Positions 12,641 through 50,203 of a stretch of DNA of 64,000 nucleotides are shown in pieces. A program made the position numbers and the translations under genes. Source of the stretch: Flavivirga jejuensis. Its GTDB lineage: Bacteria > Bacteroidota > Bacteroidia > Flavobacteriales > Flavobacteriaceae. Numbering within the stretch: the first letter of the stretch is position 1; each line of letters begins with the position of its first letter. The notes under the pieces are model-generated. The model did not search any database and was not told where the DNA came from. It was given only the letters and a program-made list of their open reading frames with translations. Where the stretch lies: assembly GCF_030540765.1 (NCBI RefSeq), contig NZ_JAUOEL010000001.1, forward strand, positions 1,054,001 through 1,118,000. The letters are read 5' to 3'.

Positions 12641-13080
12641 TAATACAATTTAATACAATATGACATTTATTGCAACGGAATTAGTTTCTTTACTCTTGTT
12701 TTCCTAAGGACATGACAAAAAAAAGTAAAAGCTAACGAAAGCTACTGTTTAATAGGTGTTTATACCGCATCTCTCTAGGCGTAATCGAGAGGTTTTTAAT
12801 TAAAATTATCAATAAAAATAAGATCTCGACTGCACCCGACCAGACATATAAAAAGTATTTGATAATTTTTGACAAGTACTAAACTTATTTTTATATAAGA
12901 AAATAGAAGTATTTATAAGCTAATATTATTATAATTTTATAAATAACAACATTTGCACAGTTGCAACATTTTTACCCCTTATGTGATAAAAAAAAACCTT
13001 CCGTTTAATGTAACTTTGAAGTAGGTTGAAAATTTTATTTTCAACTATTAAAATCAATTTCAAAAAACAAACAACATTAA
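12641..13080. other. Intergenic region upstream of the LacZ-type GH2
   Basis: No coding potential is visible. The left part holds degenerate repeat-like sequence (ATCTCTCTAGGCG, AAGATCTCGACTGCACCCGACC) of a kind common between flavobacterial genes. The right part holds the promoter of the GH2 gene: the shared regulatory element (12963-12989), the -7 box TAACTTTG (13011-13018), and an 8-bp inverted repeat GTTGAAAA/TTTTCAAC (13025-13045) in the leader. Confidence 0.6.
12963..12989 (+). promoter_or_regulatory. Shared 27-bp regulatory element, site 7 (GH2)
   Basis: The site reads GCAACATTT, TTA, CCCCTTATGTGATAA. It is the most divergent right half of the strong set, but it keeps the left block, the CCCCTTA core and the exact spacing: position 21 is followed after 36 nt (inclusive) by the end of the -7 box TAACTTTG at 13018. 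Confidence 0.65.
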
Positions 13081-16000
13081 ATGAATAAGTATTTTTATCT
13101 CCTAGTAATTTGTCTTGTAACTCTGTCTTGTAATAACTCGAACGAAAAGCCTATATATTTTGCTGAAAAATGGGAGCATCCAGAATGGGAAAACCCTGAA
13201 GTTTTTCAAATTAATAGAGAAGAGCCGACGGCTTCTTTTTACAGATATTCGACAGTAGATGATGCCTTGAAAAATGAAAGTTGGAATAATTCTACATTGT
13301 ATCATTCTTTAAACGGTCAATGGAATTTTCATTATGCAGATAGTGTTTCTGTACGTCCAACAGATTTTTATAAAACCGATTTCAATACAAAAAATTGGGA
13401 TACCATTAATGTGCCTTCAAACTGGGAAATGCAAGGTTTTGGTATACCAGTTTATATCAATAGGATTTATATATTTCCTGCAAATCCGCCATTTATACCA
13501 CATAATATTAATAATGTAGGGAGCTATAAAAGAGATTTTGAAATTTCGGAAGATTGGGATGGTAAAGATATTTATCTTCATTTTGCTGGTGTTAGTGGTG
13601 CCATGTATGTGTGGGTGAACGGACAAAAAGTGGGGTACAATGAAGGTAGTAAAACACCTGCTGAATTTAATATTACCGATGTTGTGAAAGCTGGAAAAAA
13701 CAGCGTGTCGGTTCAAGTATTGCGTTGGTCTGATGCTAGTTATATGGAAGATCAAGATTTTTGGAGGTTAAGTGGTATTGACCGCGATGTGTATGTATAT
13801 GCATCAAATAAAATTACTGTTAGAGATTTTAGAGTCATTGCCGATTTAGAAAATAACTATACCGACGGTGCATTTAAGACCAGTTTAAAAGTAGATAATA
13901 ATACCAAAAACGAGATTGAAAATACTATTGAAATTAAATTAATGGATGGGGCAGAAGTTGTTTATACAGAATCGAAAGCCGTTAATTTAAAAGAAGGCAG
14001 AAATACGGTTGATTTTACACATACTATAAATAATGTTAAAACTTGGAATGCAGAAAAACCAAATTTGTACACGTTACTTATTCATTTAAAAGATAAAAAG
14101 AATCAAACATTAGAAGCAACGTCAATTAAAGTCGGTTTTAGAAATATTAAAATTGAAAATAATCAGTTTTTAGTAAATGGTAAGCCTGTGCTTTTAAAAG
14201 GGGCTAATCTTCACGACCATAGCGATACGGAAGGGCATGCCATATCTGAAGCGCTTACTTTAAAAGATTTAGAGGTTATGAAACAAAATAACCTAAATGC
14301 CATACGTTGTAGCCATTATCCAAAAGATCCTCATTTTTACAGAATGTGCGATACATATGGTTTTTATGTTGTTGATGAGGCTAATATTGAAACCCACGGT
14401 ATGGGAACAACCAACCAAGGTTTAGATAAAAACAAAAAAGCGCAAGCCGTACATCCTGCTTATTTACCACAGTGGAAAGCCATGCATATGGATAGAACGA
14501 TTAGAATGTTTGAACGTGATAAAAATTTTCCATGTATTGTAACATGGTCACTTGGGAATGAGGCTGGAAATGGCGAAAACTTTTTTGCAACCTATAAATG
14601 GTTAAAAGAAAATGATACTACAAGACCAACACAATATGAAGGAGCAACAAATTATGCGAATACAGATATTCAGGCACCCATGTATTGGACCATTGAAAAA
14701 ATGATTGAATATGCCGAAAATGAGCCTACTAGGCCTTTAATTCAATGTGAATATGCACATGCCATGGGAAATAGTACTGGTAATTTTCAAAAGTATTGGG
14801 ATGTTATTGAAAAATACGATATTATGCAAGGCGGTTTTATTTGGGATTGGGTAGACCAAGGTCTATTAACTAAAAATGAAGCAGGCGAGCCTTTTTGGGC
14901 TTATGGTGGTGATTTAGGGGGTGACGTTTTTCGAAATGATGTAAACTTCTGTTTAAACGGTATTGTAAACCCAGACAGAACAGCGCACCCTGCATTATAT
15001 GAGGTTAAAAAAGTATATCAATACGTAAAATTTAAAGCTTCAAATTTAAAGGCTGGTGAAATTGAAATAAAAAATGGTTACGATTTTACTAATTTAAAGG
15101 ACTATGATTTTAAATGGACGTTGTTAGAAGATGGTATAGAAAAAGTAAGAGGTACATTGGCACAACAAGATATTGCACCGTCTCAAACCAAAAAAGTAAA
15201 AATAAATTTACCGTATTTAGAAAAACCAAAAGCAGAATATCATTTAAATATCTATGCTTTAAATAAAAATGAAACAGATTTGTTACCATTAAATCATGTT
15301 GTAGCTTTTGAGCAATTTCAATTAAGCGAAACACATTTTAATAGCAAGCTATCAAAATCTAATGAAGCTATTTTAGTAGAAAAATACGGAGATCTTACTA
15401 AAATTTATAATGCTAATTTTGAATTGAAATTAAATGCTAAAACAGGTAAAATAACGTCTTTAGATTATGGTAGTGGAAATATTTTAGTTGAAAGTATAGC
15501 ACCTAATTTTTGGAGAGCTGTGACCGATAATGATTTTGGAGCTAAATCTCCAGAAAAGTTAAACGTTTGGCAAAAAGCGACTAAAAAACAATCCATAAAA
15601 ACTGTTAAGTTATATAATAGTTTAAAAGAAATACCGGTTTCAGAAAATTCAAAAGTAACGGGAGACCTTCGTATTCAAACTATTTTTGATTTAATAACTT
15701 CGGTTAAAGGACAACTAGATATTGAATATATTATAAGTCCTTCTGGTGAGATTATGGTGAAGAATACATTAAACAATCTGAATCCTAAATTACCACACTT
15801 ACCAAGGTTTGGAAATAATGTCATTATAAAAAAGGAATACCAAAATATAGAATGGTTTGGTAGAGGCCCTCACGAAAATTATAACGATAGGAATACAGCT
15901 GCATTGGTTGGTATTTATAAATCGTCTGTTGCAGATTTGTATTACCCTTATATTCGTCCACAAGAAAATGGTTATAAAACAGATGTGCGTTGGTTAACAT

Positions 16001-16281
16001 GTACAAATAGCGAAGGTAAAGGCATTAAAATCGAAGGAACTCAATTATTAGGTTTTAGTGCACACCATCAATACAATGATGATTTTGATGCAGGTAAAAC
16101 AAAGCAACAACGCCATACAACAGACGTTCCTCAAAGAGATTTTGTAAACATTAATATCGATTACAAACAAACAGGAGTTGGAGGCGATAATAGTTGGAGT
16201 AAAAAAGCTTTGGCACATGAAGAGTTTAGAATACTGCCAGAAGATTTAGAATATTCATATAGAATAATTCCTTTGAAATAA
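13081..16281 (+). CDS. GH2 beta-galactosidase, LacZ-type, lipoprotein
   Basis: The 1066-residue protein has the full LacZ domain order. It starts with a lipobox (LVTLSC, Cys17), followed by a sugar-binding jelly-roll ([14 protein letters not shown]), an immunoglobulin-like domain and a TIM barrel with acid/base Glu494 (SLGNEAGNG) and nucleophile Glu557 ([14 protein letters not shown]). A second sandwich and a C-terminal Bgal_small_N domain ([13 protein letters not shown]) follow. It removes terminal beta-D-galactose, probably from oligosaccharides in the periplasm or at the cell surface. It is a single-gene unit with its own copy of the shared regulatory element. Confidence 0.92.
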
Positions 16282-16305
16282 TAAAATAATAAATGATGTA
16301 TGTGG

Positions 16306-49839: not shown

Positions 49840-49865
49840 ATTAAAATATAAAAGTAGTTATAGTG

Positions 49866-49901
49866 GGCAGCATCTTGTTTTTATAGATGTTGCCTTTTTT
49901 G
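49866..49901 (+). terminator. Terminator of the 48217-49839 gene
   Basis: GGCAGCATCT and AGATGTTGCC form a 10-bp stem with a 9-base loop, followed by six T. Confidence 0.88.
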
Positions 49902-50203
49902 TTTAGGAAAATTTCAAACAATTTTATTTAATCGAAAAGAAAAACTCGAGGCTTTGTTTCGACATTTCTATTGAAATTTATATCCCCATGACAACGAGAT
50001 ATTTATGAATTATTTTTCAGGTATTGTGCAACATTTAGAGGCCTCAAATGAGAATTATACTATCACCGAAGTTAATACTTTTGAAATAGATATAGATGGT
50101 AGATATCACGTCTATTATTATGTTAAAAATTAAAAAAATTTAAAGAGAATTAAACATATATCGGTTGTATTTGTCTTTAGTTAAAATTGATGAGCCTAAA
50201 TAA
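49902..50203. other. Promoter region of the GH-A/FN3 gene
   Basis: It contains regulatory element site 8 and its -7 box. A 42-codon open frame (50005-50133) lies across them and is more likely chance than a gene. Confidence 0.55.
50028..50054 (+). promoter_or_regulatory. Shared 27-bp regulatory element, site 8
   Basis: GCAACATTT, AGA, GGCCTCAAATGAGAA. The middle differs from the consensus, but both ends match. The perfect -7 box TACTTTTG (50076-50083) ends exactly 36 nt (inclusive) from position 21. Confidence 0.72.

Follow-up and report, generated by a model that had tools for sequence, protein, structure and literature searches.

A 27-bp element in fixed register with the -7 box, most likely a hybrid two-component system operator for sulfated-polysaccharide genes in marine flavobacteria

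In Bacteroides, hybrid two-component systems (HTCSs) count among the major regulator classes for polysaccharide use (PMC11253607). The operators predicted for the HTCSs of Bacteroides thetaiotaomicron were assigned by genome comparison, precede susCD and enzyme genes and are described as direct repeats with on average 21 bp between sites (Ravcheev 2013, PMC3878776). PMC11253607 presents the Ser/Cys-His pair of the S/CHIP-DK receiver lock as frequent and non-defining (84% and 91%). According to the same paper, Bacteroides HTCSs departing from the lock can bind without phosphorylation, and one of them, BT2391, represses its own locus. Among marine flavobacteria, the carrageenan regulon of Zobellia galactanivorans serves a sulfated polysaccharide, includes genes away from its main locus and is controlled by a one-component AraC regulator (PMC5698469). 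A literature search that covered few subscription journals found no such operator for any HTCS from marine bacteria or flavobacteria, and a search for the letters GCAACA returned nothing relevant.

The element analysed here lies in Flavivirga jejuensis, in a window (the whole stretch of DNA that was analysed) of 64,000 nucleotides. It resembles the B. thetaiotaomicron operators in preceding susCD and enzyme genes, and part of its sites carry a possibly comparable 22-bp repeat. It probably differs from them in sequence, going by the written descriptions, and differs in its downstream half, which is mostly TGAGAA, its fixed distance to the -7 box, its two centre forms and its loci in trans. It appears to fit the kind of HTCS operator known from Bacteroides, with one half-site mostly reduced. 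Like the Zobellia regulon, it is a marine flavobacterial system for a presumed sulfated polysaccharide and includes genes outside its main locus; unlike the AraC regulator of that species, its candidate regulator is an HTCS. Two features are unusual: the centre is C-rich or G-rich depending on the promoter, and almost all members of the regulator group lack the Ser/Cys-His pair of the lock.

Eight sites had been reported in an earlier note on this DNA, and all eight were recovered at the same coordinates and aligned without gaps. The first, at 12963..12989 (+), precedes a GH2 (LacZ type) gene (13081-16281), with the -7 box TAACTTTG at 13011-13018. An additional ACAACATTT half-site is present at 12946-12954, 17 bp upstream of it. 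Four sites are on the minus strand. The site at 21168..21194 precedes a GH128-like pair (21083-16751; -7 box TTACTTTG, 21139-21146). The site at 23738..23764 precedes a gene with a weak ricin-B-like match (23639-21555; -7 variant TTACTTTA, 23709-23716), the one at 26924..26950 a GH128-like gene (26831-24186; -7 variant TTACTTTA, one base nearer, 26896-26903) and the one at 32213..32239 hypothetical-sulfatase-esterase genes (32071-27408; -7 box TAACTTTG, 32184-32191). The remaining three are on the plus strand: 36832..36858 before tandem susCD genes (37026-47595; -7 box TAGTTTTG, 36880-36887), 48046..48072 before a gene with an F5/F8 type C domain and a T9SS tail (48217-49839; -7 variant TTTTTTTG, 48094-48101) and 50028..50054, with a GGCC centre, before a gene with fn3 domains (50204-52807; -7 box TACTTTTG, 50076-50083). 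With leave-one-out matrices, the held-out sites scored 18.3-35.9 bits and the best non-site position in the 64-kb window at most 11.4 bits. The reported list was incomplete, since sites beyond the window and a weaker one inside it had been overlooked. This weaker site, with a G-rich centre, is at 32577..32603 (+) before a GH2 gene (32806-35877; -7 variant TATATTTC, 32625-32632). It was scored at E = 4.2e-4 by a 56-nt model whose training set included it, and counterparts were found upstream of the orthologous GH2 gene in genomes G004, G013 and G332.

The fixed spacing that had been claimed held: the end of the -7 box minus position 21 of the motif is 35 nt (36 inclusive) in seven of the eight sites and one base less at 26924. 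For 23738 and 26924 the variants were read as TTACTTTA; an automatic box choice puts both out of frame. The promoters of these two sites (window 23660-23774 and 26846-26960) are near-identical over about 30 bp downstream of the site, probably through a recent duplication, so the two sites are not fully independent.

The register was then counted across genomes. Among 83 GYAACAWWT sites located before genes, TAnnTTTG at offset 48 was perfect in 27 and matched at 5 of 6 positions in 45, the background means being 0.38 and 1.7 per offset, respectively. TAnnTTTG is the consensus of the -7 box, placed at -12 to -5 in F. psychrophilum (PMC9723704), so the element spans about -60 to -34. The -7 block being of this ordinary sigma-A type, the reading as a promoter of an alternative (ECF) sigma factor was rejected. 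Such a promoter, with the two blocks as its -35 and -10 parts, would explain why many genes are preceded by two conserved blocks with a constant spacing; the 27-bp block is however too long and too far upstream, and the GCAACA half-sites before the HTCS gene described below lack an in-register TAnnTTTG box. This reading is the least probable of those considered. TTG near -33 was seen in 3 of 44 sites at spacers 17-23, a weak test because F. johnsoniae promoters showed no -33 motif either (PMC7366714). A second register about 11 nt further is suggested by nine sites at offsets 58-60 whose box matches in at least 5 of 6 positions, which is not clearly above the background mean of 1.7 per offset.

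Centre type was examined in 44 distinct in-register sites from 12 genomes. At positions 13-16, 30 sites have at least two C and 14 have at least two G; two GGCC sites fall in both classes and two sites in neither. The G-rich form, GGYN, is close to the reverse complement of CMCC and occupies the same position. In several genomes it recurs before the HTCS-adjacent sulfatase, the second GH2 and an 867-aa protein. A GCAACA-like repeat at +22 is clear in 7 of the 83 sites, other offsets giving at most 2. This second half-site is well visible before the HTCS gene in G172, G179, G139 and F. jejuensis; at +22, in-register sites mostly carry TGAGAA.

The 6.02-Mb genome of F. jejuensis was scanned with the 27-bp model. 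Nine sites were obtained at E <= 0.00253, the next match being at E = 0.746. The ninth is on contig C30, 208 nt upstream of a secreted GH78 gene whose product carries an F5/F8 type C domain and a T9SS tail. All nine are upstream of genes of the kind named in the earlier note, which supports the single regulon proposed there. A pattern allowing three mismatches gave 11 matches in the whole genome (seven of the reported sites, one trans site and others; 50028 was missed), and the same pattern read backwards gave 2. The 56-nt model, which spans the -7 box, was built from 37 ungapped sites, a 38th candidate before an HTCS gene having been dropped beforehand. In this genome it returned the nine sites and two variants (window 32577 and C1:1132659, the latter adjoining the HTCS gene) at E <= 4.2e-4, the next match being at 0.018; most of these matches, or near copies of them, were in its training set. 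The flanking pieces L013 and L014 each share about 500 bases with the window, and the shuffled controls of the site survey preserved base content and nothing more. Within the window the 27-bp model matches the eight sites only, so the uronate block (LacI, SDR, UxuA, UxaC, TRAP transporter and PfkB genes, 2986-11687) has none, as had been stated for this LacI-controlled region.

The GH2, GH29, GH95, GH97, GH78 and sulfatase genes of this system suggest a sulfated, galactose-rich polymer as a candidate substrate. PDB searches with the 867-aa enzyme and a 540-aa enzyme matched accessory domains and nothing else.

A hybrid two-component system had been put forward as regulator alongside AraC and SusR types, and comparison of relatives points to one HTCS. 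Its gene (C1:1128363-1132472, equivalent to L014:10864-14973, minus strand) is about 10 kb past the right end of the window and is adjoined by sulfatase genes. The protein of 1369 aa carries propeller, Y_Y_Y, HisKA, HATPase, receiver and AraC-type HTH domains in one chain. The motif and an orthologue of this HTCS occur in the same two of 12 congeners; the next relative is at 38% identity. At the family level, a 27-bp match (E <= 0.01) was found in 6 of 397 genomes and an orthologue (>= 50% identity) in 16 of 397; this orthologue count scored two candidates per genome and may miss some orthologues. Five of the six genomes with a match also carry the orthologue. With F. jejuensis itself left out, four of five motif genomes are among the 15 orthologue genomes of 396, for which the chance is about 7e-6 (hand arithmetic). 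The sixth match, in G299, falls inside an ORF of 697 aa and was rejected; this genome had already been excluded, for want of a gene downstream and ahead of the inspection of its ORF, from the 83-site count and from the control on the second HTCS given below.

A pattern scan of 84,980 species returned 12 stretches in six genomes: four in Flavicella sediminum, three in Mariniflexile sp. AS56, two in F. aquimarina and one each in Flavobacterium sp. UMI-01, F. algicola and a Bacteroidales MAG. Neither UMI-01 nor F. algicola had been met before, and each carries an HTCS orthologue (61% and 63%, respectively) on the same contig as the motif. The MAG match, in short tandem repeats and with a best HTCS relative at 33%, was rejected. 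Eleven genomes were also picked solely for the presence of the HTCS orthologue, none of them having a match to the 27-bp model. In 125 kb of intergenic DNA from 25 of their loci around the orthologues, counted on both strands, the most enriched 6-mer was GCAACA with three A/T after it, with 35 occurrences against 8.4 expected and all 11 genomes represented. In G392 the HTCS is the sole regulator among nine locus proteins scanned, and sites are present in the same locus. In G004 the HTCS and the sites are on separate contigs, which counts against the HTCS as regulator.

Another regulator could own the element. A second HTCS (C1:1024601-1028632) is encoded some 30 kb to the left of the window, and the other seven motif genomes contain orthologues of it at 64-81% identity. 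Because it is thus present in all eight, presence alone cannot separate the two HTCSs; the 6-mer control does. The loci of the second HTCS (18 loci, nine genomes) contained five GCAACA against 4.0 expected, hence no enrichment, and none of their five GYAACAWWT sites had an in-register -7 box. Moreover, G172 and G179 have elements without an orthologue of it (best relative 36% in G179; none at E <= 1e-150 in G172). The second HTCS was rejected on these grounds. The LacI of the window gave no match at E <= 1e-40 in G392, G179 and G239, and was rejected since G392 bears sites. Control by either of these regulators is judged very improbable.

The 56-nt model gave 33 matches at E <= 1e-4 in nine of the 397 genomes, most of them training sites or near copies. 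All nine genomes have the HTCS orthologue; none of the other seven of the 16 orthologue genomes had a match at this threshold. At E <= 0.05 some match was found in 219 of 397 genomes, which is background. Two trans sites were in newly met loci (G392:C1:757426 and G131:C1:2358080). Both are upstream of a sulfatase followed by GH97 and sulfatase genes, with GH95 in addition in G392. One sulfatase in the G131 operon shares 74% identity with window 56780-58387, and for GH97 the identity is 58% in both operons.

From these comparisons, the element is with a probability of about 0.8 the operator of the HTCS encoded at C1:1128363-1132472, which would activate from a fixed register; by binding there, this HTCS most likely controls sulfated-polysaccharide digestion genes in marine flavobacteria. 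What the computation establishes is the motif with its register and targets, and its co-occurrence with the HTCS across genera. We infer direct binding, the dimer geometry, the ligand and activation rather than repression. The HTCS would sense a fragment of the target polymer, and tethered dimers would occupy a pair of half-sites that lie on the same face of the double helix. The upstream half-site would be GCAACAWWT-N3-CMCC and the second one, 22 bp downstream, would be mostly reduced to TGAGAA. From the element, at about -60 to -34, an activator could make contact with RNA polymerase. In eight genomes with strong sites, the sensor is linked to operator, promoter register and targets, also at scattered loci, so that DNA sequence suffices to read the regulon. 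A single ligand screen could then identify the substrate of a large pathway for a sulfated polysaccharide.

The regulator was compared in an alignment of 17 orthologues, from which G217 and G245 (a stop in frame) were excluded and in which G392 was taken from an inner ATG. The HTH domain of 16 orthologues is 76-97% identical to that of the F. jejuensis HTCS, against 42-49% for five paralogue sequences (the second HTCS counted twice). Sensor identity drops to 40% across orthologues while that of the HTH stays high. In protein kind, domain order and intact phospho-acceptors, the group is like the HTCSs locked by S/CHIP-DK (PMC11253607). It differs from them in the Ser/Cys-His pair, the part of the lock that was compared, which is missing in 16 of the 17 aligned orthologues (G239 is the exception) and kept in all five paralogue sequences. 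The receiver loop of the F. jejuensis protein (L014:10864-14973) reads NNIP in place of S/CHIP, at residues about 1190-1193.

Without the Ser/Cys-His pair, the regulator may bind without phosphorylation. The same HTCS might then stay bound whatever its phosphorylation state, or mainly repress, the signal altering only its activity on DNA. The Bacteroides HTCSs that depart from the lock, BT2391 among them, are precedents for both. The phospho-acceptor His and Asp are nevertheless intact in 17 of 17 orthologues, a repressor needs no exact distance to the -7 box, yet the distance is kept in 12 genomes, and the element stops upstream of this box; constitutive binding or repression is accordingly considered unlikely. 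Activation by the HTCS, the meaning that the earlier note gave to the fixed helical phase, is likely but not certain, as the usual lock is altered in this regulator group. A further proposal is that the lineage without the receiver-HTH lock sits unphosphorylated on its operators and that the C-rich (CMCC) or G-rich (GGYN) centre sets two promoter classes, kept gene by gene across genera. This is speculative and rather doubtful. Owing to the missing lock, the lineage offers a test case for the gating of HTCS binding.

Near the HTCS gene, an ORF of 113 aa lies between the G-rich-centre site and the sulfatase start (L014:15160-15680). G004 has in its place an in-frame extension at the N-terminus of the sulfatase, and this region is possibly a small insertion in the genome of F. 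jejuensis. Repeats of the GCAACA/GCTACA type, 22 bp apart, were also seen at L014:9295-9321, L014:4281-4307 and L051:5075-5101. The genes that follow encode an LRR protein and a DUF4971 protein, and a possible -7 box is placed about 11 nt further away.
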